Shown here piece after piece: positions 25,169 through 51,811 of a DNA stretch of 64,000 nt. Position 1 is the first letter of the stretch. Each line of letters begins with the position of its first letter. The translations under genes were made by a program, and so were the position numbers. Source of the stretch: Actinomycetota bacterium (lineage in GTDB: Bacteria > Actinomycetota > Acidimicrobiia > Acidimicrobiales > Ilumatobacteraceae); NCBI GenBank assembly GCA_016871395.1, contig VFYV01000008.1:1-64000 (forward strand), in the 5' to 3' direction. The notes under the pieces are model-generated. The model worked only from the letters and a program-made list of their open reading frames with translations, had not been told where the DNA came from and did not search any database.

Positions 25169-25200
25169 CGATACTCCTCTCACTTTGTTTCGTCATCACC

Positions 25201-32356: not shown

Positions 32357-32457
32357 CTGACAGCATCCCCTCCCCGGTCGCCGTTTCGCTAGGCGCAACA
32401 GCGTTACCATCCAAAGCGTAGCCCACCGGCACCGCCACCGGGCAAGGATCGACACCC

Positions 32458-33393: not shown

Positions 33394-34988
33394 TCGTCCG
33401 TCTGGCTGCTGCGCAGTACGCCACCGGCTCCGATGTCGACGAAAATCTGGATACTGCATTGCGCATGATCGACGAGGCAGCGCGAGAAAATCCGACCGTT
33501 CTCGTTCTTCCCGAGTTCGGAAACCATCTCTCCGTCTATGAGTCGGCCGAACACTGTTGGGACGTCGCCATCGATCTCGATTCGGCCTGGACCCAACGCA
33601 TCGGTGCCGCGGCCGCGCGCCATGCGATGTGGATCCAATTCAACTGCACGGTGCGTCGAGGGGTCGGACGCATCACGAACACCAACCTCCTCGTCGCCCC
33701 GTCGGGTCGACTCGCGGCGGCCAACGACAAGACGGTGCTCATGGGCGCCGAGGGCATCCATCTGTCACCGGCCGACCAGCCCGCCGAGGTCGTCGACGCC
33801 GGTTTCGCCCGTCTGGGCACCTATGCGTGCATGGACGGTGTGGTCCCCGAGGTCCCGCGCTCCCTGGTGATTCGTGGCGCGAACATCCTGCTGAATTCTC
33901 TCAACTCGTTCGCCCTCGACGAGGCGTCCACGCACATTCCGGTGCGAGCGGCTGAGAACCGCGCTTGGTTGGTGGCCTGCTGCAAGATCGGTCCGCTCTT
34001 GCCACCCGATCGATTGGCTGAATTCGCCCAGAACTTGGGTGTACCGTCCGCGATGCTACGAGGCGCCGGCGAGAGCCAGATCGTGCGACCTGACGGCGTC
34101 GTCGTGGCCCGCGGTCCCCGCGACGACGAGGCCGTCGTGGTGGCCGATGCCGATCTCTCGATGTGCGGGCGACCACGTCCCGACGGGACCGACGTGCGCC
34201 GCAATCGCCGACCTGCCGTGTACGCCGCCCTGGCGCAACCGACCCCCGGCGCCGACGACCACCGCCGAGCCGATCATGTCCGGGCGAGCGCCACAGCGAA
34301 CGTTCACGATGTTGCCGCCCTCGTGCGCAACGGATCGACACTGGTTGTGCTACCCGAGCTCGCGCTCGACGACGAGTCGATCGATTCGATCTCGGCCGCC
34401 TTGGTGGGCACCGACGCCATCGTCGTGTCGTCACGTCGACGTTCGAGCCCCGAAGGCACGAGCCACTGCGGGGTGGCGATCGGTGCCCGCGGTGTCGTCT
34501 TGCATCAGCGGCAAATCCATCGCGTCGCACGACACGGGTGGGTCGACGTCCTCGGCGACGCCGTCGTCACGCTCGATGCCGCATTTGGTCGCCTGGCCAT
34601 CGTGGTCGGCGATGATGTCCTGTATCCGGAGATTCCACGCTTGGCGGCTCTGGCCGCCGTCGACGTGGTCGCCGTGCCGTGGGCACCGGGAGGCGAACCG
34701 TGGGACGTCGAACTGTGCCTGCCCGAGCGGGCCGCGGAGAACCGAATGAACCTGGTCGCGGCCGGCCCCGAGAACGTCGTCATCTCGTTGCCCCCCGACT
34801 TCACTCTTTGGGCTCCCGAGCGGCAACGACCCTTCGACGGAACCATCAACTTGCCGGACATCGCGCGCGCTCGTCGAACAGTGACGGCCGACATTCATCC
34901 GATCCGATCGCTGAATCGCCGCATCAGCCGCGACACCGATCTTGTCGACGGTCGACCGTGGCGGCTGTGTCAGTGCCTGACCGAATGA
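33390..34988 (+). CDS. Tandem carbon-nitrogen hydrolase (nitrilase superfamily), second domain degenerate
   Basis: A 532-residue protein with two nitrilase-type domains. Domain 1 (1-260) has the complete triad Glu42 (VLPEFGN), Lys114 (NDKTVLMG) and Cys147 (YACMDGVVPEVPR). Domain 2 (about 298-520) keeps Glu323 (VLPELALD), but the Lys is not conserved (HQRQIHR) and the Cys position is Gly407 (VGDDVLYPEIPR). Only the first half should be catalytic, hydrolysing an amide, carbamoyl group or nitrile. The second may serve dimer-like packing, since nitrilases act as dimers. Coupled to the upstream lyase. Confidence 0.82.
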   Translation: MIVRLAAAQYATGSDVDENLDTALRMIDEAARENPTVLVLPEFGNHLSVYESAEHCWDVAIDLDSAWTQRIGAAAARHAMWIQFNCTVRRGVGRITNTNLLVAPSGRLAAANDKTVLMGAEGIHLSPADQPAEVVDAGFARLGTYACMDGVVPEVPRSLVIRGANILLNSLNSFALDEASTHIPVRAAENRAWLVACCKIGPLLPPDRLAEFAQNLGVPSAMLRGAGESQIVRPDGVVVARGPRDDEAVVVADADLSMCGRPRPDGTDVRRNRRPAVYAALAQPTPGADDHRRADHVRASATANVHDVAALVRNGSTLVVLPELALDDESIDSISAALVGTDAIVVSSRRRSSPEGTSHCGVAIGARGVVLHQRQIHRVARHGWVDVLGDAVVTLDAAFGRLAIVVGDDVLYPEIPRLAALAAVDVVAVPWAPGGEPWDVELCLPERAAENRMNLVAAGPENVVISLPPDFTLWAPERQRPFDGTINLPDIARARRTVTADIHPIRSLNRRISRDTDLVDGRPWRLCQCLTE

Positions 34989-36561: not shown

Positions 36562-37368
36562 GTGTGGCGAAGTCTGCTGTATGTGCCGGCTGACCGGGCC
36601 GAACAATTCGTGCCCCGGGCCGAAGCGACGGCGGTGGACGCGATCATCGTCGACCTCGAGGACGGCGTCGCCCCCGTAGCCAAAGCGGCGGCTCGGGCGT
36701 GCGCCGCCGACGTGATTCGTTCGATCGATCGGCCGGTGGTCGTGCGCGTGAACAGTGGCGACGCGCTGGATTACGACATAAAGGCCATCGCGTTGGCGAA
36801 TCCGTCGGCCATCATGCTTCCGAAGGCCACCGCTCTCTCGCTCGACGATGCCGAGCGCAGCCTCGCTCGCCATCGATTGGCGGTCCCGTTGATTGCCCTC
36901 GTCGAATCGGCCCGAGGTTTGCTCGACCTCGAGGCGATGGCCCGCCACCGACGGGTGTCGCGCTTCGCGTTGGGTGAGGCCGACCTGCGCGCCGATCTCG
37001 GGCTCGGCACGCACGCCGACCATGCGCTCTGGCCGCTGCGCACGTCGGTCGTGGTGGCCTCGGCTGCTCACGGGCTCGAACCACCCATCGGACCGGTATC
37101 CACCGACTGGCGCGATCTCGACGATTTGCGCCGCACCAGCACCTTGCTCAGAAATGCCGGTTTTGGCGGCCGCTCGGCGATCCATCCAGATCAGGTGGCC
37201 ACGCTCATCGAGACCTTCCGCCCCAGCACCGACGATGTGAGGGTCGCCGAACGGATCGTGGCGCTCTTCGATGCCGCCCTGGCCGAAGGTCGGGGCGTCG
37301 CGGTCGATGACAACGGTCGCATGATTGACGAGGCGGTCGTTCGGTCGGCGCGTCACGTTCTGTCCTGA
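36562..37368 (+). CDS. HpcH/HpaI-type lyase (CitE-like, citramalyl/malyl-CoA lyase family)
   Basis: A 268-residue TIM-barrel lyase: LLYVPADRAEQF, VDLEDGVAP, LPKATA, LIALVESARGLLDLEAMA with the metal-binding Glu, GEADLRADLG and FGGRSAIHPDQV. CitE-like relatives cleave citryl-, malyl- or citramalyl-CoA to acetyl-CoA plus an oxoacid. GTG start. It lies beside the catabolic operons and its 3' end overlaps the convergent alpha/beta hydrolase by 16 bases. Confidence 0.85.
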   Translation: MWRSLLYVPADRAEQFVPRAEATAVDAIIVDLEDGVAPVAKAAARACAADVIRSIDRPVVVRVNSGDALDYDIKAIALANPSAIMLPKATALSLDDAERSLARHRLAVPLIALVESARGLLDLEAMARHRRVSRFALGEADLRADLGLGTHADHALWPLRTSVVVASAAHGLEPPIGPVSTDWRDLDDLRRTSTLLRNAGFGGRSAIHPDQVATLIETFRPSTDDVRVAERIVALFDAALAEGRGVAVDDNGRMIDEAVVRSARHVLS

Positions 37369-38000
37369 CTCGCGGCTCGCACGATGAAGTCGGCCACGGT
37401 AATCGGTGTGAGCAGCGGTGCGTCGTGATGACTGGCGATCATTTCGTACTCGCGGCCCTCAACCTCGAAGCGACGACGACTGGCGACTGACGGAAAGAAC
37501 TCCGGCGTGAGCGAACAGAACGCGACGGAGAGGGGAACACGTTCGTCCACCTCCACGGCGTCGAGACTCGGACCCATGGGAGTCGGTGACAATCGCTCGT
37601 TGACCCAGGCCGCCAGTGGCGCGTCGAAGCCGTTGGTCTCGCTCACGAACGTGGCCGCGATGTTGGTGTTTCGTGGTGGCAACGATGAAGGCAAGGGACC
37701 TGACACGTCGACGGCCCGCTGCCCGGACTCGATGACCGGGGCGTCGATCAGTACCACCCGCGACACCTGCGGCCAGCGTGCGGCGGCCCGCGCCACCACC
37801 CCGCCCATCGAATGACCGACCACGATGTCGCCGGGTTCGACCACACGGAGCACGTCGTCGATCCACTCGCTCATCGACGGCTCACCACCCCGCAGATCCA
37901 CTGCCACGGCGCTCAGGCCATGCGAAGACAATACGGGGATCACCCGATCCCACGCCCACGAACCACGGAAGGCGCCGTGCACCAGAACGCACTTGCTCAT
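37353..38000 (-). CDS. Alpha/beta hydrolase
   Basis: A 215-residue alpha/beta hydrolase: VLVHGAFRGSWAW as oxyanion region, GHSMGGVVA with nucleophile Ser64, VVLIDAPV with a candidate Asp, and ASHHDAPLL for the histidine. The fold includes esterases and the plant MES family that demethylates pheophorbide-related compounds, so a methylesterase role is possible but unproven. Last gene of the long minus-strand operon, coupled by ATGA to the small barrel gene. Confidence 0.82.
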   Translation of the reverse strand: MSKCVLVHGAFRGSWAWDRVIPVLSSHGLSAVAVDLRGGEPSMSEWIDDVLRVVEPGDIVVGHSMGGVVARAAARWPQVSRVVLIDAPVIESGQRAVDVSGPLPSSLPPRNTNIAATFVSETNGFDAPLAAWVNERLSPTPMGPSLDAVEVDERVPLSVAFCSLTPEFFPSVASRRRFEVEGREYEMIASHHDAPLLTPITVADFIVRAASQDRT

Positions 38001-38311
38001 CGATCGGTGGCGAGAAGCACGGAAAGGATCTCCCTTTGGGGATCATGGGGCTCGAGGTGTTCGCTCAAGCGCGCGATCCAGGTCGCGTAATCCGGATGAG
38101 CGATCAGTCGGTCGTAGTCGTCGGCGTGATCGAAGAAACGAATGTTCACAACATGACGGGGATCGTCGTTGCCATGGAGGAGGCGACGACCGCGGTAGCC
38201 GGTGATGGTCTCATGGACCTCCTCGAACTCCGCCGTGATGCGCACATACGCGTCGGCTCGAGCCGTCGGATTGTCGTTGCGCAACCAGGCGTGGGAGACG
38301 ATCGCGATCAC
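37997..38311 (-). CDS. Small dimeric alpha/beta-barrel protein (ABM/EthD-like)
   Basis: A 104-residue protein with a GTG start, coupled on both sides. FEEVHETITGYRGRRLLHGND and RHVVNIRFFDHADDYDRLI fit the ferredoxin-like dimeric barrel found in antibiotic-biosynthesis monooxygenases and haem-degrading IsdG-type proteins. No catalytic residues can be read, so a helper or small isomerase/oxygenase role is left open. Confidence 0.6.
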   Translation of the reverse strand: MIAIVSHAWLRNDNPTARADAYVRITAEFEEVHETITGYRGRRLLHGNDDPRHVVNIRFFDHADDYDRLIAHPDYATWIARLSEHLEPHDPQREILSVLLATDR

Positions 38312-39009
38312 GACACGACCTCGCTTCCTTCAGGTGGCGCTCCACCGAACCGCAGCCCGGTCACCCCAGCATCACGAGACATCGGCGAAGAGACGTGACC
38401 GGGAAAGGCAAGTAGCTCGAGTCGCGTCGATGCACCGTCTTCGGATGCCAGCGTGATCATACGCAAAGGCGCATCGGCCACCGGTAAATCGAGATAGGCA
38501 CCGAGTGACGGATCGGCGAACTCGAGGGGTGGGCCAGCGGTGGCCCCGACCGCGGTCCAGAGCGATGCCTCGACATCGCGATCACGCACGCACCAGACCA
38601 CGCTGTAGATCTCCGAGCACCAGTGCGATTCGCTGTCGAGTAGTGACGGCCGGCGGTGCGAACTCTCGACCATCACGATCGGCACCCCGTCCGGTCCGGC
38701 CACCAGGGCCTGGCGCATACGAACCGGCCCGAGAGCGATCGCTCCGATCGCGCCCGCCCGCCAGCCAGCCTCCAGGATGCGAGTCAATGCCTCGTCGAGA
38801 TCGTGCACGTACACGTCGAGGCCGCGCGGTCCGAGATCCCAACCCCGGCGCAAGACTCCCCGCGTGTCCGAACGGGAGACCTGTACGGTTGCTCCCGCCG
38901 AACGGGACAACACGTCATCACCACGATCGACGAAACCGAAAATCGCGAAAAAATCACGAGTCGCCGCCGGATCCGACGCCGCGACATCGATCCGGCGGAT
39001 GGGCAGCAT
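38308..39009 (-). CDS. VOC-superfamily protein (two glyoxalase-like halves)
   Basis: A 233-residue protein from the ATG at 39009 with AAGGAG upstream. The N-half begins RIDVAASDPAATRDFFAIFGF, typical of the vicinal-oxygen-chelate fold; the C-half repeats the pattern at YSVVWCVRDRDVEASLW. The metal ligands are not complete, so the role could be binding or an isomerase/dioxygenase step. Confidence 0.72.
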   Translation of the reverse strand: MLPIRRIDVAASDPAATRDFFAIFGFVDRGDDVLSRSAGATVQVSRSDTRGVLRRGWDLGPRGLDVYVHDLDEALTRILEAGWRAGAIGAIALGPVRMRQALVAGPDGVPIVMVESSHRRPSLLDSESHWCSEIYSVVWCVRDRDVEASLWTAVGATAGPPLEFADPSLGAYLDLPVADAPLRMITLASEDGASTRLELLAFPGHVSSPMSRDAGVTGLRFGGAPPEGSEVVS

Positions 39010-39941
39010 CAGTCTCCTTGCCAGGCAAGTGCGCCATAGAGCAGGTAGCGCATCCGGTCGCCCTCGATCCACTTCCAACATGCAGACATCGAAAGTTGGT
39101 CGTCATAGAGGAACTCTCGGCCTTGAATCTTGATGGCCTCCCCGAAGATGTGCTGCGCCGTGTACAGGGCCCGTCCGTAGGCCCGACCGTTGCCGTAGAG
39201 ACCGGGTCCGTCGAAGGTGTGCAGGTTCCCGTCGTGATATCGATCGAATGTGTACTGCCTGTCGATCAGGCCGGAGAGTTTCACCGTTTGGTGCGCTCGC
39301 AAGAGGCTGGTGGGCTCGTGACGGATGGAGACATTCACTTCACCCGCCGGTTGCTGATCAGAGCCGTATGCGCGCATGGTCCCCGACCAGGTGCCCCTCT
39401 GCTTGGGCGGCAGGGTGTGTGGCATGCGACCGGCTTGAGCCTCGGAATCACAGAAGGCGTCGATGCGCTGGCGCGTCGCAGCGTTCGTCTCGTAATCGAA
39501 GGCAACCTTGTACACGCCGTTCATGACCGCGACGATCGTCTGGCCTTCGAACAACAGCGACGAATACACTTGGGTTTCACCGTCGTCGAGTATGTGGACC
39601 ATGGTTCGCAGGTCGGCCTGCCACGCCGGCGAGTAGTAATTGGCATCCACCAACATCCCGTACGGATGACCCGCCCCGACGAAGTCAGGACCGAGATAGA
39701 TGCGATCGCGATCGCTGTCGAGCAGTTCGAAGGCGAACTCGCTGAACTCCATTCGATTGCGTAATGGGCCGTCATTGTCGAATTTGGTGTGCATGTAGTA
39801 GATGGTCTTGTCGCCTTCTTTGCGCGACGACCGCGACACCTTGATCCAGCCGGTGTGGTTGCCGTGCGGATCCCAGACCGACGGACGGCCGTACCACTCA
39901 CCTTCGATCGTCTGTTGCCAATTACTCGTGTCGCCCGACAT
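39009..39941 (-). CDS. Conserved hypothetical with two lipocalin-like halves
   Basis: A 310-residue, strand-rich protein. Each half opens with a Gly-x-Trp motif followed by a Tyr or Asp and Gly turn: EGEWYGRPSVWDPHGNHTGW in the first half and RGTWSGTMRAYGSDQQ around residue 183. This pattern is typical of calycin/lipocalin-like barrels such as nitrobindin or DUF3598-type proteins. No signal peptide. In this operon a barrel that holds a hydrophobic pigment or intermediate is plausible. I cannot name the family. Confidence 0.6.
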   Translation of the reverse strand: MSGDTSNWQQTIEGEWYGRPSVWDPHGNHTGWIKVSRSSRKEGDKTIYYMHTKFDNDGPLRNRMEFSEFAFELLDSDRDRIYLGPDFVGAGHPYGMLVDANYYSPAWQADLRTMVHILDDGETQVYSSLLFEGQTIVAVMNGVYKVAFDYETNAATRQRIDAFCDSEAQAGRMPHTLPPKQRGTWSGTMRAYGSDQQPAGEVNVSIRHEPTSLLRAHQTVKLSGLIDRQYTFDRYHDGNLHTFDGPGLYGNGRAYGRALYTAQHIFGEAIKIQGREFLYDDQLSMSACWKWIEGDRMRYLLYGALAWQGD

Positions 39942-39956: not shown

Positions 39957-40706
39957 TCACCTCGCCGGCGTCGCCAGCTTCGATCTGAGAACTTCAGCCC
40001 GCTCGGTTCCTATCAACTGACCGACGCGTCCCCACACGGGGTCGACCGTTGCATCGAACACGATCGCTCGATTGCGGCGGTCCCGGTCGGCGATCTGATC
40101 AGGACCCACGCCATCGAGAACGTCGCTCGGAACACCGTTCGTCACCAGCGACAACCAGTGATCGCGATACGCGGTTACCGCGGTTTCCACGTTCCGGAAC
40201 GCCGACTCGTCGGCCCGGTGCACCAGCATCCACGCTGACATCACGGCGTACTGGGTCGGGCTCAAATGAGCTGGCTCGAGTCCGGCGATGGTCTGGGCCT
40301 CGGCGCGAATGGCGGTGAGAGGCTCGAAACAATGGCGAAGGTAACCGAGGTGCGCACCGAGATCGAGTTTCGGTATGAGGTCGAGGTGAAAGGCGAAAGC
40401 CGCCTGCGCACCTGGTTGGCCGCCACCGGCCACCGAGTCGACCGTGAAGTGCGGAACCGCCGATGCGACCGGCGAGAAGGCGAACATCATGTGGCTGTCG
40501 AGGCCGATGGGCGGAACCGACAAACCGATGTAGACGAGATCGACCGCTCCGATCCACCACCGCATCCGACCCACCGGAGCGTCCGGCATCATCGGACTGG
40601 TGAGCACGTGCAGGGCGTCGGGTGCCTCACCCGCTGTCTCCACCAATCCGAGTCGATCGACGATCGTCTGTACCGAGCGCCAGCACAGGTCGAACGACAC
40701 GCTCAC
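39957..40706 (-). CDS. Divergent bilin-reductase/RCCR-like protein
   Basis: A 249-residue protein with a GTG start overlapping the Rieske oxygenase stop. It shares the layout of the neighbour at 41906: VPHFTVDSV then FHLDLIPKLDL and a Tyr-x-x-x-Phe-Glu-Pro (YLRHCFEPL), a LSPTQYAVMSAWML block where RCC reductases have a Ser-Pro/Tyr-Val-Arg block, and a C-terminal DRRNRAIVF followed by VDPVWGRVGQLIG. I assign it tentatively to the ferredoxin-dependent bilin reductase/RCC reductase superfamily. Catalytic residues cannot be confirmed by eye. Confidence 0.45.
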   Translation of the reverse strand: MSVSFDLCWRSVQTIVDRLGLVETAGEAPDALHVLTSPMMPDAPVGRMRWWIGAVDLVYIGLSVPPIGLDSHMMFAFSPVASAVPHFTVDSVAGGGQPGAQAAFAFHLDLIPKLDLGAHLGYLRHCFEPLTAIRAEAQTIAGLEPAHLSPTQYAVMSAWMLVHRADESAFRNVETAVTAYRDHWLSLVTNGVPSDVLDGVGPDQIADRDRRNRAIVFDATVDPVWGRVGQLIGTERAEVLRSKLATPAR

Positions 40707-41893
40707 GCGCGCTCGACCTCTCGCCGTTCACGCAGGGCTTCCTTTGCTTCGAGTTCCTTGAGCACCCAGGCGTTGGCCAATTCGGGATTGGCGCGGCGCG
40801 CCGGTGATGGCACGACCTTGGCACCCTCGTAACGGCCCGTTCCCACGACGTGCTCGTCGATGAGCCAACCACGATCGATGTTGCCCTGACGCCATCGGCG
40901 ATACGCCACTTGGACGGCATCACTCTTCACCTGCAACTCAGCCGAGAGGTCGAAGGGCACCAGTTCAGGACGCTGACCTTCAACGGTGGCGCGATCCTCG
41001 TAGAAGATCTTCATGGTGCGCTTGTACGAGTCCTTGTCGGCACGAAGCAACGTGATGGCCCACGGTTGGGTGAAAAATGTCCGCATCATCGTCCACTTCG
41101 AAATCGAGTGATTCTCGTCGACCGGAACGACCGCCGTGAAGATGGTCATCACCCCGATCGGCAGGTTGACCTGCAGGAACGTGATGTTGGGAAAGAACAC
41201 GCCGTTCCCGGTGGCGACCGGCGGGCGCTCCTTGCCGCGACGCAACACCTTCCAGATGCCCTTGGGATCGGGGGGTTCGAGGTGCACGACATACGTGGCG
41301 CCCATCAGGTGGTCGCCGACTCGGTGCTCCACCAGATCGAAGTCCTCGATCTCGGGTTTGTTCGGGTTGCCGAAACTGGTGGAGTGCACGAATGGCGCGT
41401 GGGCGGCATCGGCACCGTTCTCGATCACGCGCTCGTAGTTGGCGTTCCAGGCGAACTCACCCTGCACGACGCGGTTGCCTTCGGCGCGCGCCTCGCGGTC
41501 GTCGGCCATCCCGGGTAATTCGGCCAGCGGCGGCCGCTCGTTCTCCGGAAGGTCACCGAAGAACACGAATACGTACCCGTACTTCTCGACGCAGGGGTAA
41601 TTATCGACGCGGGCTTTCTTCGGAACGGGAGATCCCGCTTTGTTGGCCGGGATCTTCACGCAGACGCCGTCGGTGTCGTATTGCCAGCCGTGGTAGGGGC
41701 ACTGGATGCAGTCACCCACGACCTTGCCGCCGGCCAGCGACGCACCGCGGTGGATGCAGATGTCGCTGTGGCACACCATTTCTCCCTTGGTGTCGCGGTA
41801 CAGAACGAGGTCCTGTCCGAACAGCCGAACCTGATGCGGCGTCGAGCCGATCACGTGACCAAACTCCACCGCGTACCACTGGTTCTTGATCAT
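40703..41893 (-). CDS. Rieske non-haem iron oxygenase, alpha-subunit type
   Basis: A 396-residue oxygenase. The Rieske [2Fe-2S] cluster ligands are Cys46, His48, Cys65 and His68 (CIHRGASLAGG and CPYHGW). The mononuclear iron site is ENGADAAHAPFVH with Asp162, His165 and His170. The ATG has AAGGAG at ideal spacing. The general class includes vanillate demethylase, ring-hydroxylating dioxygenases and plant pheophorbide a oxygenase (PaO). It lacks the C-terminal CxxC and membrane helices of plant PaO, so it is a soluble relative. It needs an electron-transfer partner not seen here. It sits 12 bases after the RCCR-like gene. Confidence 0.9.
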   Translation of the reverse strand: MIKNQWYAVEFGHVIGSTPHQVRLFGQDLVLYRDTKGEMVCHSDICIHRGASLAGGKVVGDCIQCPYHGWQYDTDGVCVKIPANKAGSPVPKKARVDNYPCVEKYGYVFVFFGDLPENERPPLAELPGMADDREARAEGNRVVQGEFAWNANYERVIENGADAAHAPFVHSTSFGNPNKPEIEDFDLVEHRVGDHLMGATYVVHLEPPDPKGIWKVLRRGKERPPVATGNGVFFPNITFLQVNLPIGVMTIFTAVVPVDENHSISKWTMMRTFFTQPWAITLLRADKDSYKRTMKIFYEDRATVEGQRPELVPFDLSAELQVKSDAVQVAYRRWRQGNIDRGWLIDEHVVGTGRYEGAKVVPSPARRANPELANAWVLKELEAKEALRERREVERA

Positions 41894-41905: not shown

Positions 41906-42739
41906 TCAGCCGATCCGGGCCCGGGATCCATCAGGGCGTGCGATCCGGCGGTCGCCACCCCACAACGCGCGCACGAGTCGTTCGGTCATCTCCTCACCGA
42001 AGAATCGCACACCGATCACATTGGCGGGATCACGGTCGGCCACCGTGCGGCGAACGAGAAGATCGCGTTCGGCCAAGGAACGTCGCTCGGCTGATGGCAC
42101 CGGATCGCCCTCTCTCAGATGGTCGAGCCACGCATCCACGCGACCCTGTGCCAGTTTCAACATCTTGTCGACCGCGTCATCGGTACGTTTGACGACACAA
42201 CACAAAGCGGTGTTCGACACCGCCTGACGGACGTAAAGCGTCTGGCTGACGAACGGCGAGAAGTTGGGGTCTTCACGAATGGCCATGAACTCGGCGTTCT
42301 GCGGCTCGTAATACCGATCGAGGTAATCGGGACGGGCGAGCAAATCGACGCGAGGCACGTAGTCGACGAAGTACCAGTAATCGGGGATGGTCCCGAGCGC
42401 GATACCGAGATGAGGCACGTAGGTGTGTGGTCCGAGGTACCCGGTGAGGTGCAGGTTGGTGAAGCCGATCGATGGATTACCAATCCACGAATGGATCATC
42501 CAATCGACTTCGGGTCCGACGAATGCATTGAGGCTGCCCTTGGGCCCATCCTCCACTCCGTAGGAAGCAAACTCCTTGGTCGAAGGATCGGGTTCGACCG
42601 TCAGCACCGCGGTTATCTGATCGAACATCTTCTGTAGGCCCGCCTGCAGCACGGCGAATTCGCGCGTGACGTCGAGCGGTCCGGATTCATCATGGATGTC
42701 GACGATCGACTTCGTCGTTTCGGTGGCTCCTACGGACAT
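41906..42739 (-). CDS. Red chlorophyll catabolite reductase (RCCR)-like protein
   Basis: A 277-residue protein that closely follows plant RCC reductase (ACD2) as I remember it. Shared elements, in order, are a GS near 68 and 'IHSWIG' at 82-87; TGYL (99-102); a proline-Arg-x-Asp-Leu (129-133) then PDYLDRYYEP (137-146); FVSQTLYVRQAVSNTA (163-178) where ACD2 has YVSPSLFVRSAFSPTA; an ERD/RR pair; and FFGEE (246-250) near the C-terminus. RCC reductase is a ferredoxin-dependent enzyme that reduces a linear tetrapyrrole in chlorophyll breakdown. The ATG has GGGAGGGG upstream. It is the gene just upstream of the Rieske oxygenase in the operon. Confidence 0.72.
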   Translation of the reverse strand: MSVGATETTKSIVDIHDESGPLDVTREFAVLQAGLQKMFDQITAVLTVEPDPSTKEFASYGVEDGPKGSLNAFVGPEVDWMIHSWIGNPSIGFTNLHLTGYLGPHTYVPHLGIALGTIPDYWYFVDYVPRVDLLARPDYLDRYYEPQNAEFMAIREDPNFSPFVSQTLYVRQAVSNTALCCVVKRTDDAVDKMLKLAQGRVDAWLDHLREGDPVPSAERRSLAERDLLVRRTVADRDPANVIGVRFFGEEMTERLVRALWGGDRRIARPDGSRARIG

Positions 42740-42787: not shown

Positions 42788-43801
42788 CTAGCCCACGATC
42801 AGACCGCACTCCTTCAACGCTGGTGCGACGGCGGCTGGCCCATTCGGATCGGCCGCGTGCGCCGGCAACATGAAGGACAGTCCGTCGAGTCCTGAAACAC
42901 CACAGAGTCCACCGAGGCGCTCGGCCACCTCAGCGTGAGTACCGACGATCATGCGCGCGGTGAGCCCGGCCCGAAAGCCCGCGTCGTCGAGTTGGGCTGG
43001 ATCCATACCCCGTCCGGCAACCATGCGACGCAACAAGTCGTCCACCTCTTTCTCCGTCGGTGCGGTCACCAACGATGCCAGCAGCGTCACATTGATGGAG
43101 TCTCGCGACCGATTCTCGGCGTCGAGCGCGCGTTGGAGCACGGCGAGTTTGTGCGGAACCTCTTCGACCGTGCAGTTGAAGTTGATCGCATCGGCGACTC
43201 GCGCCGCCAAGGGAATGGTCTTGCGCTCCCCCGATCCTCCGATGATGATCGGCGGACCACCCGCGCGCAACGGCGCCGGAACGTTCACGAGACTTTCGGT
43301 CCGGAAATGCCTCCCGGAAACGCTGGTTTCGGCCCGGGTGAACATTCCGCGCAGAATCTGCACGCCCTCGTCCAACATCTCGAATCGTCGCGACACGGAC
43401 GGGAAGTCGAAGCCGAAGGCTCGGTGTTCTTCCTCGTACCACGCCGCACCGATGCCGCAGATGGCTCGACCGCGCGATACGACGTCGAGGGTCGTGATCA
43501 TCTTCCCGAGCAACGCCGGATTGCGGTAGGTCACACCGGTGACGAGGGTTCCGAGATTCACGCGCTCGGTGCGCGCCGCCAACGCTGATAAGAGCATGTA
43601 GCCCTCGAGCATCGGTTGACGCGAACCACCCAGGAAGATGAGTTGGTAGAAGTGGTCCATGACGAAGACGGTGTCGAATCCGGCTTTCTCGGCCGACTGT
43701 GTGTAGTTGGACAGGTGTTCGAAAATGCCGTCGTCCGGAACACCAAGGCCGTGGAAGGTGGGCATTTGCAGCGCCGCGCGAACCAGTTCGCGATTCGTCA
43801 T
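42788..43801 (-). CDS. Luciferase-like, F420-dependent oxidoreductase
   Basis: A 337-residue TIM-barrel LLM-class protein: LSNYTQSAEKAGFDTVFVMDH, LSALAARTERVNLGTLVTG, TTLDVVSRGRAICGIGAAWY and PPIIIGGSGERKTIPLAARVADAIN. These are the hallmarks of the actinobacterial F420-dependent group; flavin use is also possible. The stop of the neighbour overlaps its start (ATGA). It probably oxidises or reduces an intermediate of the pathway. Confidence 0.86.
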   Translation of the reverse strand: MTNRELVRAALQMPTFHGLGVPDDGIFEHLSNYTQSAEKAGFDTVFVMDHFYQLIFLGGSRQPMLEGYMLLSALAARTERVNLGTLVTGVTYRNPALLGKMITTLDVVSRGRAICGIGAAWYEEEHRAFGFDFPSVSRRFEMLDEGVQILRGMFTRAETSVSGRHFRTESLVNVPAPLRAGGPPIIIGGSGERKTIPLAARVADAINFNCTVEEVPHKLAVLQRALDAENRSRDSINVTLLASLVTAPTEKEVDDLLRRMVAGRGMDPAQLDDAGFRAGLTARMIVGTHAEVAERLGGLCGVSGLDGLSFMLPAHAADPNGPAAVAPALKECGLIVG

Positions 43802-44382
43802 GACAGTCCCTTCGTGTAGTCGTTCACGGTGACCACGTCGGCCACGCCGGACAAACTAACCAACGTCGCGTCGTGAACTCGGGGGTCGAAAGCCGCGCAA
43901 CCGTCGGAGAGCAACCGAACGTGGAAACCGCGTGCGTGAGCGTCACGGACCGTCGACGCCACCCCGCCATTGGTCACGATACCCGCCACGGTGACGTGGT
44001 CGACGTTCCACTGCCGCAACAGCCATTCGAGGCGCGTGTGCAGAAAGGCTGAGTAGGCGACCTTTTCCACCACCGAGTCGACGGGTCGCAGTTCGTCGAC
44101 CACCGCATGGCCCCACGAGCCGGCAGCGAAATCACCGCGGCGCAGGAACGGCCGCAACGCACGCAGGTGTTCGGCGACCATCGGATCACCGTTTCGATCA
44201 GGTACGAGGGTGAAACAAGCGGCGATCACGGGAACACCCTGGCGACGTGCGGTGGCGACCACTGGCGCCAGACGAGCGCCGAGAGTCCCCAGGGCTTGGC
44301 TCACCACTCCCCCTCGTGCGTACGCACCATCGGGATGCAGAAAGTCATTTTGCAAATCGACAAGAAGAAGGGCCGCGGTCAT
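43798..44382 (-). CDS. Isochorismatase-fold protein lacking the catalytic cysteine
   Basis: A 194-residue isochorismatase-fold protein from the ATG at 44382. Asp9 (LLLVDLQNDFL) and Lys107 (VEKVAYSAF) are present. The cysteine of amidohydrolases is Gly140 (VTNGGVASTVRDA, codon at 43963-43965). True isochorismatases such as PhzD also carry Gly here, so this may act on a vinyl-ether or other non-amide bond, or be inactive. It is the second member of the family in the window and is coupled to HyuA. Confidence 0.82.
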   Translation of the reverse strand: MTAALLLVDLQNDFLHPDGAYARGGVVSQALGTLGARLAPVVATARRQGVPVIAACFTLVPDRNGDPMVAEHLRALRPFLRRGDFAAGSWGHAVVDELRPVDSVVEKVAYSAFLHTRLEWLLRQWNVDHVTVAGIVTNGGVASTVRDAHARGFHVRLLSDGCAAFDPRVHDATLVSLSGVADVVTVNDYTKGLS

Positions 44383-46418
44383 GGCTCCCGCACCACCTCG
44401 AGGTTGCCGAGCGGGTCGACCGTGACTCGGAAGCCCGGCTCGATGAGCGTCGTTGCGTCGGGTTGTTCGAGAACGATCGGCCCGACGATGGTCGCACCGA
44501 TCGGGAGTTGCAGTCGGCTCCACACCTCGGCGTCGTGCCACTGCCCTCCCACGTACACGGGGCGACGACCGAGGCGAGCGGCCTCCAGAGTGGTCGTTCC
44601 GGTCACCAGACGGGTCAGGTCGAATTCGGGCCGCCGACCGATCACGCTGGTACGAACGGCGAGGACGCGAACGGCCACACCGCTCAGCAGTCGCCCGAAT
44701 TGTGCACGGTAAGCGCTTTCGAAAGCCGCCGTAATCACGGATGAATCGAGCTGCTCGGGGTCATCGACGGGGAGCGAAACCGCGACGGCGTGGGTCTGAC
44801 CGACGTACGACATGTCGAGAACCATCTCGACGTTGATTCCATCGAACACCACCGCCGACGATTCGATCGCACGACGAGACTCGTCGATCGACGCCCTCAT
44901 CGATTCTCGGACGGCCTCGATGTCGAGTGAAGCAAGAGGAGACTGCCACGTGCGGACCGAGTCGTAACGCATGTCGGCCAACACACAGCCGAGGGCGGAG
45001 ATCACCCCCGGCAGGCGCGGCACTAGCGCCCCGGCCAGACCCAGATCGCGAACGAACGCGCAGGTGTGCAGCGCACCGGCTCCCCCGAACGGCACCATCC
45101 AGAAATTGGACGGGTCGTGACCGCGTTCGATCGACACGATTCGCAAAGCTCCCGACATCCGAGTTTCGGCAACGGTGATAATGGCTTCGGCTGCATCCTC
45201 GATCGACAATCCGAGCAAACGACCCACGTGCTCGTCGATCGCACGGCGGGCCGCCGCCACATCGAGGGCCACACGTCCACCGATGGGACGCTCGGCGTTT
45301 ATGCGACCGAGAACGACGTTGGCGTCGGTGACCGTGGGCCGATCATTCCCCAGGCCGTAGCACACCGGTCCGGGGACGCCGCCGGCTGACTCGGGGCCGA
45401 TCTGCAACAGACCGCCACGATCGACCCAGGCAATCGACCCACCACCAGCTCCTATCGTGCTCATTTCGATCATCGGAGTGCGCACCACCAGACCGAAGTC
45501 GATGGTGGTCTGCGCGGCTTGAACGGAACGCCCACCGACGACGACGGCGACGTCGAAACTCGTCCCCCCCATGTCACCGGTCAGGACATTCGGGTGCCCG
45601 GCCGCCACCGCGATCCGACTGGCCGCGCTGACGCCAGCGGCCGGACCCGACAACGCGGTACGGATCGGCATCGAGCGGGCGCGTTCCACGGTCATCACAC
45701 CGCCGTTCGACTGCACGACGAGGAATCGACCCGAAAACCCGTTTTCGGCCAGACCCTTCTCCAGTTGTTCGAGGTAGTCGCCGACGATCGGCTGCAGGTA
45801 GGCGTTCAGCGTGGTGGTGGACGTGCGCTCGAACTCGCGAATCTCCGGCAAGATCTCACTGCTGACCGAGACGTGCGCATTGGGCCACAACCCTCGGACG
45901 ACTCGTGCCGCTGTCTGCTCGTTGCTCGGATCGAGGTACGAATGAAGGAAACAGATCGCGATCGATTGCGCACCGCGGTCGAGTAGATCGTGAGCGACCC
46001 GTCGCACCTCATCAGCGTCGACTGGCTCGATCACCGTCCCGTCGGCCAGTGTTCGCTCGGCCACCTCGGCCCGCATATCGCGTTCGACCACCGGACGGAA
46101 ATCTCCCCAAAGCCCCCACGTGCGCGGCCGATCACGACGGCGCATCTCCAACACATCGGCGAAACCGGCCGTGGTGAGTACGGCGGTGTGCGCACCCTTG
46201 CGCTCGAGCAGGGCATTGGTTCCGACCGTTGTCCCGTGGATGATGGCATTCAGATCACCGAGGGACCGCTCCCCCGCCACGCTTCGAACTCCGTGTAGGA
46301 ACCCCTCGGCTTCGTTGGTGCGGGTGGACGGGACCTTGCCCACCGAGACTTCGCCCGACGACTCGTCGAGAGCGAACCCGTCCGTGAACGTTCCTCCGAC
46401 GTCGATGCCGACGATCAC
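44379..46418 (-). CDS. hyuA: Hydantoinase/5-oxoprolinase subunit A (ATP-dependent)
   Basis: A 679-residue HyuA-type protein of the actin-like ATPase fold: IVGIDVGGTFTDGFALDE (phosphate 1), HGTTVGTNALLERKGA, TGDMGGTSFDVAVVVGG, MIEMSTIGAGGGSIAWVD, and WMVPFGGAGALH near 480. The family includes N-methylhydantoinase, 5-oxoprolinase and acetone carboxylase, which use ATP to open cyclic amides or imides or to phosphorylate a ketone. GTG start overlapping HyuB (GTGA). Confidence 0.9.
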   Translation of the reverse strand: MIVGIDVGGTFTDGFALDESSGEVSVGKVPSTRTNEAEGFLHGVRSVAGERSLGDLNAIIHGTTVGTNALLERKGAHTAVLTTAGFADVLEMRRRDRPRTWGLWGDFRPVVERDMRAEVAERTLADGTVIEPVDADEVRRVAHDLLDRGAQSIAICFLHSYLDPSNEQTAARVVRGLWPNAHVSVSSEILPEIREFERTSTTTLNAYLQPIVGDYLEQLEKGLAENGFSGRFLVVQSNGGVMTVERARSMPIRTALSGPAAGVSAASRIAVAAGHPNVLTGDMGGTSFDVAVVVGGRSVQAAQTTIDFGLVVRTPMIEMSTIGAGGGSIAWVDRGGLLQIGPESAGGVPGPVCYGLGNDRPTVTDANVVLGRINAERPIGGRVALDVAAARRAIDEHVGRLLGLSIEDAAEAIITVAETRMSGALRIVSIERGHDPSNFWMVPFGGAGALHTCAFVRDLGLAGALVPRLPGVISALGCVLADMRYDSVRTWQSPLASLDIEAVRESMRASIDESRRAIESSAVVFDGINVEMVLDMSYVGQTHAVAVSLPVDDPEQLDSSVITAAFESAYRAQFGRLLSGVAVRVLAVRTSVIGRRPEFDLTRLVTGTTTLEAARLGRRPVYVGGQWHDAEVWSRLQLPIGATIVGPIVLEQPDATTLIEPGFRVTVDPLGNLEVVREP

Positions 46419-48112
46419 GAATCGCCCCGCGTGACGTACCCGAGACGGCGATCGCGCTCGACAGCCACAGGATCACGATCGCCGGGCGGACCGTATCCGC
46501 CGCCACCGGGCGATTGGATGCGAACGCGATCGCCGCGCGACATCTTCACCCCGAGCACCTTGGCTCCCAGTTCGGGTTCGATCACGTCACCGGCCACCAC
46601 GAAACTCACTTCGTTGGTGGCGGCTGCACCCCCACCGGCGATTCCCAGGGGTGGACGCCATGCTCGATCACCGAAGGTGAATGCCTCGGCCGACTCGGCC
46701 AACAATTCGATGTCGTACGAGGCACCCAAACCGCCCCGGAACTTACCGTCACCACCCGAGTCGGGTCGCAACGACCAACGACGGAACCGAACCGGGTATT
46801 GCGCTTCGAGGATCTCGACTGGTGGAATCGTGGCCGTCGACAACGGTGCGTTCCCGTGATTGAGACCGTCGGAGACCGGCGAGCCACCCAACCCGCCTCC
46901 ATAGAACGTGAACATGACCCAAGGCGAGCCATCAGCACGTTGACCCGCGAGTGACAAGGCGTTGATGGTTCCGTAACTGCACCCGTTCGACGCCGTGGGG
47001 TCGGCCTCAGCGACGCAACGAAAAATCAGATCCATCACGCGCAGGATGGTCTCGGTGTAACCACCCACCGGTCGGGGACGCGTAGCCGCCAGCAGACTGC
47101 CCGCCGGGATCACGATGTCGACCGGTTCCAGACAACCGAAGTTGGCCGGCACGTCGCGAAAGACGTGCTTGAGTCCGACGTAGCATGCCGCGACCGCGGT
47201 GGAGCGCGAGATGTTGATCGGTCCGCAGACGGCACCCGAGGTGCCGCCGAAGTCGAGTCGCAGACGATCTCCTTCGACCGTCATCGCGAGGGCGACCTCC
47301 ACCAACTCGGACGACGAACCGTCATTGTCGAGATAGTCGACGGCACGGTAGACACCATCGGGCAACTTGTCGATACTCGACCGCATGAGTGTCGCTGCGC
47401 GGCGGGTGAGTTCGTCGAGGGCCTCGGCGACCACCCCATCGCCGTACTCGTCGAGGAGTTCGCCGAGGCGACGCGCCCCGAGATCAAGGGCGTTCAACTG
47501 CGCCTGAAGGTCGCCGTAAGCATTGACCGGTTGTCGGGATATCGAACACACCAAATCGACCACCCGTTCGTCGGTCTCGCCAGCGCGACGAATGAGCACC
47601 GGCGGAATGAGGGTTCCCTCTTGCTGAATGTCGCGCGCGGCCGGGTTGTAGTTGCCCGGCACGTTGCCACCCACGTCGGTGAAGTGACCAACCGATGCGA
47701 GATGACACCAGATTCGGCCACCGCGAAAGAAAGGGCGGATCATTTTGAGGTCGTTGAGGTGGGTTCCACCCTCGTACGGGTCGTTGAAGCAGTACACGTC
47801 GCCGTCCTGCACCGCACCCGACTCGACAGCACCATCGACGTCTGCTCGTCCCCCTCGGCGTTGACTGTCGGCCGACATCGTCGCAATAGCCAACCGCGCG
47901 GCACCGGCCATCGAACCGACGAACACCGGGAGACCGTTGGATCCCTGGACGAGCGTCGCTCCGGTGTGCGCGTGATAGATGCCGTGCGACGCGTCGTGCG
48001 CCTCGGCGATGATCGGATTGAATGCCGAGCGGAACAACGTCGCGTCCATCTCATTGGCGATTTGCTCGAGGCGACCGTTGATGACCGCGAGGAGCACGGG
48101 GTTGAGGCTCAC
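46415..48112 (-). CDS. hyuB: Hydantoinase/5-oxoprolinase subunit B
   Basis: A 565-residue HyuB protein: VLLAVINGRLEQIANEMDATLFRSAF, then SHGIYHAHTGATLVQG, DVYCFNDPYEGGTHLNDL, and a C-terminal RVRIQSPGGGGYGPPGDRDP. I start at the GTG at 48112, directly before the conserved block and overlapping the MmgE/PrpD stop (GTGA). The frame further upstream is antisense to that gene. It forms the functional partner of HyuA. Confidence 0.9.
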   Translation of the reverse strand: MSLNPVLLAVINGRLEQIANEMDATLFRSAFNPIIAEAHDASHGIYHAHTGATLVQGSNGLPVFVGSMAGAARLAIATMSADSQRRGGRADVDGAVESGAVQDGDVYCFNDPYEGGTHLNDLKMIRPFFRGGRIWCHLASVGHFTDVGGNVPGNYNPAARDIQQEGTLIPPVLIRRAGETDERVVDLVCSISRQPVNAYGDLQAQLNALDLGARRLGELLDEYGDGVVAEALDELTRRAATLMRSSIDKLPDGVYRAVDYLDNDGSSSELVEVALAMTVEGDRLRLDFGGTSGAVCGPINISRSTAVAACYVGLKHVFRDVPANFGCLEPVDIVIPAGSLLAATRPRPVGGYTETILRVMDLIFRCVAEADPTASNGCSYGTINALSLAGQRADGSPWVMFTFYGGGLGGSPVSDGLNHGNAPLSTATIPPVEILEAQYPVRFRRWSLRPDSGGDGKFRGGLGASYDIELLAESAEAFTFGDRAWRPPLGIAGGGAAATNEVSFVVAGDVIEPELGAKVLGVKMSRGDRVRIQSPGGGGYGPPGDRDPVAVERDRRLGYVTRGDS

Positions 48113-49521
48113 TCTCGCGCGCTCCCGATCGACCCCAGGTGCGTCATGACGGCGCGAACGTCGGGGGTTGCGCTGGTGAGTACGTCGGCCACCAGAGTCG
48201 CCGCCTCGGGCTTCAGCAAACCATCCACGTTTTGATCGAACTTGCCCCGTAGCTCGGCGTGAGACAACGGTCGGCGGGGACCACCCCGGTTCTCCATGAC
48301 CGCGCACTTCAACTCTCGACCGTCGATCGTGTCGACGGTGAGGACAGCCGGGAACTCGTACGGGTACACGGCGTCACAAGCGGCGTCACCAACCACCGTG
48401 ATCTTCTTCATGAGTTCGCGTCGACGCGGATCATTGGCCAGGGCGTCGGTGAAGTCGTCGAGGCCCAATCCGAGTCCGCCGCCACCGATCAGCGCGGCGG
48501 CCACCGTGTACGGGCCGGAGAACTGTGCGGCATAACCCGTCGGCGGGGAGCGCTTCACGTCGATCGGATCTCCGATCGTGCGCACTGTTGCCGTGGCGAC
48601 TGCCAAGGTCGCCGAGGCGACCTGCTCGGAACGCAGACCCTGACTGCGCAAGGCGATCGCCGCATCGATGCCGGCGTGGGTGAAATGGTTGGCGGGGTAG
48701 GGCTTGTAAAAGATGTCAGCCACGTTCCACTCGGTGCCAAGACCGTCGAGCAACGGATCGGGAGACCACTTGTCGCGCAATGTCGCGCCGTAAAAACCGA
48801 ATCGTCCCTCCAGTGCGGTGGGAGCACCAGTCAGGCCGGCCACGGCCAGTTGTGCCGCGGTCACGGCGGCCTGGGCGGCCCAACCGCAGTGGATCCGTTT
48901 GACGGTACCGCCGGTGCGATTGGCCTCGATGATCCCCGAGGCCATCGAGCACGCCACGGCCATGGCGTGCGCGCATTCTTCCGCCGTACCCCGGGCCAAG
49001 GCGGCCACCGCACCGGCGGCGCCGATGGCTCCGCACATCGACGTGGCGTGCCAACCGTGCTCGAAGAACTCGGATTGCTGCGTCGCCTGGTCGTAGCCGG
49101 CCATTCCGAGGCGCACCACCAACTCGAGGCCGATGGCGACCGCATTCATGACGTCATGGGGCGCGCAGTCGTACTCCTCGGCCGCGGCCAACACTGCCGG
49201 AACCACGCTCGCCGATGGATGAAGGATGGACGGCAGATGCGTGTCGTCATAATCGAGCGAATGGGCGAGAACCCCGTTCACGAACGCTGCGGTGGTGGCC
49301 GGCATTCCCGAGGCGAATCCCACCGCCGTGCAACGACCGCTGCCTCGCTGGCGCTGAATGAACGTTCGGATCACGTCGGTCGAGTCGACTTCGGTCGCCC
49401 GAACGCAGATGCCGAGGATGTCGAGCACGCGACCGGGTACCGAGGCGGCAACATCGGCCGGTAGGGGACGGTGTATCGAATCGGCGGCGAAGCGCCCGAG
49501 GCGCTCGAGAAGCGTGGTCAT
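48109..49521 (-). CDS. MmgE/PrpD family protein
   Basis: A 470-residue MmgE/PrpD-fold protein from the ATG at 49521: ILGICVRATE, AAFVNGVLAHSLDYDDTH, LHPSASVVPAVLAAAE, FEHGWHATSMCGAIGAA, KRIHCGWAAQAAV and YKPYPANHFTHAGIDAA. The family contains 2-methylcitrate dehydratase and cis-aconitate decarboxylase, both acting on branched C6-C7 tricarboxylates. Here a dehydration/hydration or decarboxylation of a branched acid is plausible. Coupled to the cyclase upstream. Confidence 0.9.
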   Translation of the reverse strand: MTTLLERLGRFAADSIHRPLPADVAASVPGRVLDILGICVRATEVDSTDVIRTFIQRQRGSGRCTAVGFASGMPATTAAFVNGVLAHSLDYDDTHLPSILHPSASVVPAVLAAAEEYDCAPHDVMNAVAIGLELVVRLGMAGYDQATQQSEFFEHGWHATSMCGAIGAAGAVAALARGTAEECAHAMAVACSMASGIIEANRTGGTVKRIHCGWAAQAAVTAAQLAVAGLTGAPTALEGRFGFYGATLRDKWSPDPLLDGLGTEWNVADIFYKPYPANHFTHAGIDAAIALRSQGLRSEQVASATLAVATATVRTIGDPIDVKRSPPTGYAAQFSGPYTVAAALIGGGGLGLGLDDFTDALANDPRRRELMKKITVVGDAACDAVYPYEFPAVLTVDTIDGRELKCAVMENRGGPRRPLSHAELRGKFDQNVDGLLKPEAATLVADVLTSATPDVRAVMTHLGSIGSARE

Positions 49522-50339
49522 GGATTCACCAACGCCAGAGGGCGAACCGGCGAACCGGTGGCCCCGACGAGAGACAAAGGGGCCAACACGAAGACGAACT
49601 CGTGCACTCGGCGTTCGGAGAGGACTTCCAAGTCGAGTGTTTCGATGATGTTGACACCACGTTCGACGAGCAATACGCGGTGGGCCGGTAGCAAGGCGTG
49701 GCCTCGACCCGGAGGCAAACACTCGAACGCAACGGTGTCGGCCCCAACGGCGCGCGGAGACCGATCGGCCAGCCATCGTGCGCCGGCCTCGCCCACACCC
49801 GGAACACCCGTTTCCCTGCCGATGAAGGCCGCGCCCTCGCTCCACTTCGATCCCCAACCGGAACGAACGAGGATCACGTCGCCCGGCCCGGGTTCGACTC
49901 CACTCCACGTGACGGCGTCTTCGAGATGATGCGGGGTGATCTCGACGCCACCGTCGAGCGACCGAAGTTGCAGTGACGCCGCCACGTCGATCAGGACCCC
50001 GCGCGTGACGATCGGTTCGATCTGATCGACCCCCAGGGTCGACAACCGGCCGCCGCGCTGGGCGTCATCGGCCTTGACGCCCCCGTAGAGATCACCGCAA
50101 TGCGAAACGTGACCAAGGGCGTCGATGTGGGTGCCGACATGAGTTCCCGTGACGAGCAGATCGTTGGCGGCCGAACCGCCGTCGTCGCGAATCATGTCTC
50201 CGTGACGACGCGGCATGCTCAGCCGGAATTCGGGATGGTTCGGCGACTGTGGCATACCGACGACCATGGGCCGAGCCAGGTCGATGATGGAAACACCGCG
50301 ACTCACAACCTCGAGCAAGGACTGAATGTTCGAGTTCAC
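49518..50339 (-). CDS. Metal-dependent cyclase/kynurenine-formamidase-like hydrolase
   Basis: A 273-residue cyclase-family protein: SIIDLARPMVVGMP and the metal site GTHVGTHIDALGH with His67, His71, Asp73 and His77. This is the HxGTHxD pattern of KynB-type amidohydrolases and related cyclases. A role in opening or closing an amide ring is therefore likely. GTG start overlapping the CoA-transferase stop. Confidence 0.85.
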   Translation of the reverse strand: MNSNIQSLLEVVSRGVSIIDLARPMVVGMPQSPNHPEFRLSMPRRHGDMIRDDGGSAANDLLVTGTHVGTHIDALGHVSHCGDLYGGVKADDAQRGGRLSTLGVDQIEPIVTRGVLIDVAASLQLRSLDGGVEITPHHLEDAVTWSGVEPGPGDVILVRSGWGSKWSEGAAFIGRETGVPGVGEAGARWLADRSPRAVGADTVAFECLPPGRGHALLPAHRVLLVERGVNIIETLDLEVLSERRVHEFVFVLAPLSLVGATGSPVRPLALVNP

Positions 50340-51535: not shown

Positions 51536-51811
51536 GTCCCCTCCATCCGGTTTGTTCCCGTAGCGGAAGCAGAAGTCCGTTGGTTTCCGTTCTATCAGAC
51601 AAGCGCCGAAACGAGCACCGGACGCTCGACCCGCGAACCAGGCCGTACGACATCTCCGAGCAACCCCTCCCGCGTCGAAGTGACCTCTCCCGAGTCGGCA
51701 ATCTGGCCCGCTGTCTCCTCGAGACGACGACCGGGCCATGAGCCGGTCTCGGTTATGCTCCGACGGAGAGGAGCAGCATTCCGAAAGTCAGAACCGCACG
51801 GAGGAGGGGCC
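51536..51811. promoter_or_regulatory. Divergent intergenic control region between the two catabolic operons
   Basis: 276 bases separate the outward-facing starts at 51535 (-) and 51812 (+), one of the longest gene-free gaps outside the rRNA region. For the plus side, TATGCT at 51754-51759 is a reasonable -10 hexamer about 50 bases before the cupin ATG, and GGAGGAGG precedes that ATG. An inverted repeat GCGGAA...TTCCGT spans 51563-51590, centred on the minus-side leader, and could be an operator. No regulator gene is adjacent. Promoter calls are by eye only. Confidence 0.4.

Follow-up and report, generated by a model that had tools for sequence, protein, structure and literature searches.

A huge amount of chlorophyll is destroyed every year, and the plant pathway that disposes of it ends at phyllobilins. 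We know of no established bacterial genes for dismantling linear tetrapyrroles to central metabolites. The literature surveyed, in which subscription journals are mostly not represented, likewise holds no account of such genes, nor of an actinobacterial cluster built around red chlorophyll catabolite reductase (RCCR; ACD2 in plants). Bacterial RCCR homologs as such are already known: they were noted in 2009 in Anabaena and in Nostoc, the latter with two side by side (Npun_R3277/R3279) (PMC2716323), and sequences from Ca. Schekmanbacteria fall within the RCCR outgroup (PMC10151467), as far as the consulted portions of these papers go. Pre-PcyA bilin reductases are described in heterotrophic bacteria, in clusters that carry globin and V4R genes (PMC10151467, consulted in part). 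Here we describe RCCR1, a gene at 41906..42739 on the minus strand of a 64,000-nucleotide stretch of DNA (the window) comprising positions 1 to 64,000 of contig VFYV01000008.1, GenBank assembly GCA_016871395.1, from an Actinomycetota bacterium of the Ilumatobacteraceae. Our judgment leans, if only just, toward RCCR1 being one of two proteins with the RCCR/bilin-reductase fold that are encoded in tandem within a conserved cluster of Acidimicrobiia, a cluster that degrades a linear tetrapyrrole. The novelty lies in a known sequence family found in a new setting and in a sister family that escapes Pfam.

The initial annotation had called this product an RCCR-like protein of 277 residues, and database searches bear it out. 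Read from its ATG, the open reading frame matches PF06405 (RCC_reductase) in Pfam-A over residues 76-259 (E 6.7e-20; 71.8 bits, cut-off 24.9). The top three of seven rows from phmmer against the PDB are Arabidopsis RCCR (E 6.9e-14 to 3.8e-13), followed by a bilin reductase from a cryptophyte (E 0.0086). Scores of this size rule out chance similarity. Motifs of RCCR1 and Arabidopsis RCCR align in the same order: IHSWIG/IGSWIH, TGYL/SGFL, PDYLDRYYEP/PDYLKEYYQD, FVSQTLYVRQAVSNTA/YVSPSLFVRSAVSPTA, an RR/D stretch, and FFGEE/MFGEE. An earlier claim of similarity along the whole length thus stands as to motif order and falls short as to extent, since a profile built from 11 RCCR1 members widens the Arabidopsis match only to profile positions 31-259 of 272. 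The profile searches proposed along with that annotation gave a significant match for the RCC reductase family and none for the bilin reductases, where a scan at E 1 lists no PF05996 for RCCR1, which scores 13.7 bits against the NCBIfam phycoerythrobilin reductase model (cut-off 327); six of the 11 alignment members do match PF05996, with a best E of 0.00075. All 11 members match PF06405, and homologs at 47-95% identity have the same gene neighborhood in other genomes, so the gene is real. The plus-strand reading of the same interval is interrupted by two stops, which removes another strand or frame as a candidate. Plant contamination is likewise rejected, because 20 further Acidimicrobiia genomes carry RCCR1 homologs in this context.

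Residues at the catalytic positions bear on what RCCR1 can be called. A joint MAFFT alignment places at the first acid position Glu of Arabidopsis RCCR, Asp of the bilin reductase GtPEBB, Ala114 of RCCR1 and Asp90 of RCCR2, the second protein of the fold encoded in the window; the second position is Asp in all four. In Arabidopsis numbering we take these acids to be Glu154 and Asp291, the place of the first being fixed by the titles of the F218V structure entries together with the alignment. The phmmer alignment of RCCR1 with GtPEBB agrees with MAFFT, setting Asp-99 on Ala114 and Asp-219 on Asp237 when its chain numbers are taken as two above those of the published numbering. Of 22 RCCR1 sequences, 21 carry Ala at the first position and a lone copy (locus L039) carries Val; Asp237, which lies near the C-terminal FGEE motif, His83, His110 and Asp126 are invariant in 22 of 22. 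With Ala114 in place of an acid, RCCR1 is therefore not to be named an RCC reductase; the suggestion that it is one is unsupported both on this ground and by its Rieske neighbor, which lacks a PaO domain. According to the consulted part of PMC6755814, Asp-219 of GtPEBB is catalytic, and HY2 of vascular plants, which has lost the Asp of the first position and uses another residue instead, offers a precedent for RCCR1. The same source, again consulted in part, states that Arg-215 of GtPEBB is conserved in RCCR, yet MAFFT aligns it with Val233 of RCCR1 and a Ser of Arabidopsis RCCR, so the alignment is perhaps off by one residue or more in this region, and which Arabidopsis Asp corresponds to Asp-219 is uncertain.

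RCCR2 (39957..40706, minus strand, 249 residues) belongs to a second, divergent branch of the RCCR/bilin-reductase superfamily, one missed by Pfam. A Pfam scan of 11 RCCR2 members at E up to 1 lists five families; PF05996 is not among them, and PF06405 appears for three of the 11, with a best E of 0.033. Its predicted structure has the RCCR/bilin-reductase fold, with GtPebB and Arabidopsis RCCR tied as the best structural match. Rows of this fold in the structure search are bilin reductases, RCCR and coproporphyrinogen oxidases, plus two chains of an FtsHi complex; a fold search of a viral library gave two rows at E <=0.001, of which the one named is a phage PcyA. Both acids are kept: Asp90 in 23 of 23 RCCR2 sequences, and Asp222 in 22 of 23, the exception being a fusion protein at locus L049. 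On these residues RCCR2 appears a better candidate catalyst than RCCR1, which may be its partner or may use another proton donor.

Four genes form a compact block in the window, all on the minus strand: RCCR1, a Rieske oxygenase, RCCR2 and a 310-residue calycin. The first two genes are 12 bases apart, the Rieske gene and RCCR2 overlap by 4 bases, and 15 bases lie between RCCR2 and the calycin gene. This order was compared across 21 loci, with flanks taken from 20 other genomes. It is preserved on one strand in 19 of them; locus L023 has the block without the 310-residue gene, and L039 has RCCR1 alone. The Rieske gene stands between the two RCCR-fold genes in 20 of the 21. Outside the genus the block proteins retain roughly 43-75% identity by tblastn, except at L039 (32%), and the block, with several hydrolase, CoA and lyase genes, is likewise conserved in further families of Acidimicrobiales and in a single genome that belongs to the class but not to this order. 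Loci had been picked for containing RCCR1, and linkage was tested by whole-genome searches only. Within the order, RCCR2 was found in 20 of 397 genomes, namely all 18 that have RCCR1 plus G921 and G1033. The contig of G921 ends within the Rieske gene, so that RCCR1 would fall past its end, and the match in G1033 is a fragment at a contig edge (E 2.8e-10). The calycin, searched in a smaller sample of 238 genomes of the order, was found in nine, every one of them RCCR2-positive.

One genome, G994, carries additional single copies. A lone RCCR1-like gene (L039:9267-10127, plus strand; PF06405 45.1 bits, 32% identity to RCCR1), without a block and with Val at the Ala114 position, adjoins genes for a metal P-type ATPase and a MerR regulator. 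A 568-residue frame at L049:9115-10821 (minus strand) has an NAD(P)-binding Rossmann/epimerase-type domain fused to a C-terminal RCCR2-like domain (37% over 235 residues), beside a carotenoid-oxygenase (RPE65) gene. From its domain make-up this fusion is possibly a reductase that carries its own NAD(P)H domain.

The Rieske non-heme iron oxygenase (40703..41893, minus strand) begins 12 bases after RCCR1, and its stop overlaps the start of RCCR2. It scores 80.6 bits for the Pfam Rieske domain and 90.4 bits for VanA_C, and both domains occur in 11 of 11 homologs. PF08417, the PaO domain, is listed for none of the 11 at E up to 1, which excludes PaO as its identity; across the 21 RCCR genomes PF08417 exceeds its cut-off in none, with one weak match elsewhere in G435. 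The nearest solved relatives are NdmA, SxtDIOX and SxtT. A Rieske protein of this small-molecule type, together with the loss of the first acid in RCCR1, would suit a cluster that degrades some other nitrogen-containing ring compound, with the RCCR fold recruited to a non-tetrapyrrole substrate on which RCCR1 and RCCR2 act in a new way. We regard this as improbable: apart from the FtsHi-complex chains the structural matches of the fold are tetrapyrrole enzymes, RCCR2 retains both acids, and the block includes a calycin of the nitrobindin/CpeS kind (on a weak model).

A different pathway, in which biliverdin, bilirubin or phycobilins from other organisms are imported and reduced by the RCCR pair, the Rieske enzyme acting later on a bridge or an end ring, fits several of the same observations. 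Both acids of RCCR2 are Asp, the pattern of bilin reductases, and neither is the Glu of RCCR; GtPebB ranks level with Arabidopsis RCCR as its structural match; an ABC transporter adjoins the cluster; and none of the 21 RCCR genomes has a PaO domain above cut-off. RCCR1 is nevertheless clearly closer to RCC reductase than to the bilin reductases by the scores given above, and the Rieske gene lies consistently between the reductase genes, so that we hold such a bilin pathway to be unlikely, if worth keeping in view. The canonical heme-oxygenase route within the cell was examined as well and rejected, PF01126 being found in 0 of 21 RCCR genomes (its control was positive in 3 of 14). Without a heme oxygenase, it would follow either that the Rieske enzyme opens the ring or that open-chain pigments are taken up.

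The calycin (39009..39941, minus strand) is DUF3598-like, and the C-terminal half is modeled as a beta barrel, in a weak model with a mean pLDDT of 54.2. This model resembles the barrels of DUF3598, BFA1, nitrobindin, CpeS and CpeT; PF12204 (DUF3598) gives 12.3 bits against a cut-off of 22 and, with E up to 1 allowed, appears for two of 10 members. CpeS and CpeT are phycobiliprotein lyases, and the four genes of the block vary less from locus to locus than the genes around them. These two points favor a block that makes or tailors a bilin chromophore, or that detoxifies a photosensitizer, with the catabolic genes around it as chance neighbors. Such a role seems to us rather doubtful, given how those catabolic genes recur across families. 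In counts of the 21 loci (tblastn, E 1e-8), which are lower bounds because the loci span about 11.5-20.8 kb and some end at contig ends, they are a CitE-like (HpcH/HpaI) acyl-CoA carbon-carbon lyase (36562..37368, plus) in 17; a carbon-nitrogen hydrolase of 530 residues from the aligned start (33396..34988, plus) in 16; an MmgE/PrpD-family protein (48109..49908, minus; an open reading frame whose true start is probably further in) in 14; a class III CoA-transferase (50336..51739, minus, likewise probably starting further in) in 12; and an HMG-CoA-lyase-type carbon-carbon lyase (32458..33393, plus; Pfam HMGL-like, NCBIfam PRK05692 278.6 bits against a cut-off of 246) in 12. Genes in these loci were called with a simple open reading frame caller, and some that it missed were recovered by tblastn. 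A PF04199 cyclase-family hydrolase (49518..50339, minus) also recurs in 12 loci, and a second class III CoA-transferase (31166..32455, minus) in nine. Among NCBIfam models the CoA-transferases score best, though below cut-off in every case, against succinate-glutarate, formyl-CoA and mesaconate CoA-transferases. The recurrent gene types present in the window all lie in its 28-52 kb region.

We propose catabolism of a linear tetrapyrrole because the named enzymes of the fold act on tetrapyrroles and because the pair encloses a Rieske oxygenase, is accompanied by a calycin, and is surrounded by genes for hydrolases, CoA-transferases, a hydratase and lyases. The Rieske oxygenase would oxidize the tetrapyrrole, either opening a chlorophyll-type ring or modifying one already open. 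RCCR2 would then reduce the resulting linear compound, drawing electrons from a ferredoxin whose gene lies elsewhere, while RCCR1 might carry out a different reduction with another proton donor (the invariant His83 or His110) or serve as a substrate-binding partner of RCCR2, and the calycin might bind the tetrapyrrole or pass it on. Fragments such as pyrrolic lactams or maleimides could be opened by the carbon-nitrogen hydrolase, the PF04199 hydrolase and, in this genus, also a hydantoinase pair. The opened fragments would be activated by the class III CoA-transferases, hydrated by the PrpD-type enzyme and split into central metabolites by the CitE- and HMG-CoA-lyase-type lyases. A maleimide such as hematinic acid, for instance, would on hydrolysis yield an alkylated maleate, a near homolog of methyl-aconitate, which PrpD-type hydration, CoA transfer and CitE/HMGL cleavage could take to pyruvate and an acyl-CoA, a route read from the gene families. 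What the data show directly is the PF06405 membership of RCCR1, the predicted fold of RCCR2, the constant gene order, the joint occurrence of the genes and the lost acid; substrate, reaction order, direction and the chemistry as a whole are inferred. The initial annotation had imagined RCCR1 as the signature enzyme of a new tetrapyrrole-degrading system. An RCCR-family protein does mark what looks like such a system, with conserved neighbors, and only its identity as RCC reductase has to be given up.

Several observations weigh against tetrapyrrole catabolism. RCCR1 lacks the first catalytic acid, and the Rieske protein matches VanA_C and not PaO in all 11 homologs, its solved relatives NdmA, SxtDIOX and SxtT presumably acting on small molecules. 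The calycin model is weak. Genes of maleamate type occur in few of the 21 loci (Amdase family in 3, isochorismatase in 3 and 1, hydantoinase A in 3), and that part of the route may therefore be local. The lone RCCR1-like and RCCR2-like genes that G994 holds in addition to its block are evidence against a strict linkage of the four genes. The Mg-dechelatase Stay-Green was not found in the 21 genomes, in a search whose control was also silent, and no ferredoxin or ferredoxin-reductase gene was noticed in the clusters, no search having been aimed at them. More tentative, and in our estimation well short of an even chance, is the fuller proposal of a complete aerobic pathway that mineralizes chlorophyll-derived or bilin tetrapyrroles by a non-PaO Rieske enzyme that opens or modifies the macrocycle, a heteromeric RCCR-fold pair with one member catalytic and the other lacking the first acid, and a new imide-to-CoA route to pyruvate and acyl-CoA. 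If true, it would be the missing organismal sink for phyllobilins and bilins. The conserved block in any case supplies named, expressible proteins with which bacterial breakdown of linear tetrapyrroles can be tested.

The RCCR family is rare and patchy in the samples searched. The source genome (1.95 Mb in 43 contigs) holds a single RCCR1 copy, and three close relatives with RCCR1 at 92-95% identity are Actinomycetota metagenome-assembled genomes, including Acidimicrobiales bacterium mtb01 of the class Acidimicrobiia. Counting the source genome, PF06405 is present in 6 of 100 relatives, 9 of 395 genomes of the class, 18 of 397 of the order, and 3 of 396 in a sample of the phylum, all three within this order; at genus level the family occurs in 4 of 24 listed genomes, many of them incomplete. 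Plasmids gave no match to RCCR1, RCCR2, the calycin or an Arabidopsis fragment, and viral contigs gave none either, one search there producing 14 pattern matches of which none was confirmed; phage or plasmid origin is rejected.

Other neighbors of the block recur less often. Beyond the calycin lie a conserved protein, vicinal-oxygen-chelate-like by eye and with no Pfam match (38308..39081, minus, 9 of 21 loci), a small ABM-like protein below its Pfam cut-off (37997..38311, minus, 4 loci), and an alpha/beta hydrolase with two solved relatives at E 1e-5, both hydroxynitrile lyases (37353..38000, minus, 4 loci). An Amdase-family protein (30396..31169, minus, 3 loci), an FAD-dependent monooxygenase (29134..30468, minus, 2 loci) and an isochorismatase-fold hydrolase (28494..29123, minus, 1 locus) follow. 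A further Amdase-family gene (EutA/arylmalonate-decarboxylase-like) lies at 24386-25183, also minus, and the run between the two encodes an aldehyde dehydrogenase, an acyl-CoA dehydrogenase, the isochorismatase and the monooxygenase; both Amdase-family products could, we assume, be enzymes of maleate-isomerase type. Upstream of RCCR1 are genes for an F420-type luciferase-like (LLM) oxidoreductase (42788..43801, minus, 3 loci, all of the same genus), another isochorismatase-fold hydrolase (43798..44541, minus, 3 loci), and hydantoinase/oxoprolinase A (44379..46418, minus, 3 loci) and B (46415..48307, minus, 4 loci). A DUF4437/ChrR-cupin protein at 51.8-52.7 kb (plus) adjoins the CoA-transferase end of the cluster. 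Next come an alpha/beta hydrolase (aligned range 53099..54007, plus), 41% identical to the hydrolase beside the block in relatives, and branched-chain-amino-acid-type ABC transporter genes (54399..59935, plus), with two ATPase domains and permease domains in two long open reading frames; homologs of the second (57185-59935) adjoin the cluster in five relative loci. The alpha/beta hydrolase near the block may or may not be a chlorophyllase: PETase-family scores were weak, with one of five scanned members over cut-off, and the one member searched had no solved relative.

Further types recur across the 21 loci: an IclR regulator (14), an unknown 244-residue protein (11), DUF3891 (10), SDR (10), a second calycin (10) and an amidohydrolase (7), none of which has a match in the window by tblastn at E 1e-5. 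In loci from beyond the genus, DUF3891, the 244-residue protein and a second calycin-type paralog of the 310-residue protein often come after the block on the opposite strand; examples of this set are L017:3315-4334, L018:5912-6646 and L018:5013-5915, all plus.

Compared with plant ACD2/RCCR (PDB 2zxk, 3aga, 3agb, 3agc), RCCR1 shares the PF06405 family, the motif order and the second acidic position; it differs in having Ala where the plant enzyme has Glu, in being bacterial, and in belonging to a block with a second protein of its fold. The ferredoxin-dependent bilin reductases (PebA, PebB, PcyA, HY2) and pre-PcyA differ from the pair, neither RCCR1 nor RCCR2 being listed for PF05996 at E 1, RCCR1 falling far under the NCBIfam cut-off, and heme oxygenase being found in none of the 21 RCCR genomes. 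The homologs of Nostoc, Anabaena and Ca. Schekmanbacteria, compared by description only, are bacterial like RCCR1, with two side by side in Nostoc; the consulted portions of their descriptions mention no Rieske-RCCR2-calycin context, unlike this block. The plant PaO-RCCR pathway of chlorophyll breakdown, like the block described here, combines a Rieske oxygenase with an RCCR-family protein, whereas here the Rieske enzyme is of VanA_C type, two proteins of the RCCR fold are encoded, and CoA-dependent catabolic genes surround them.
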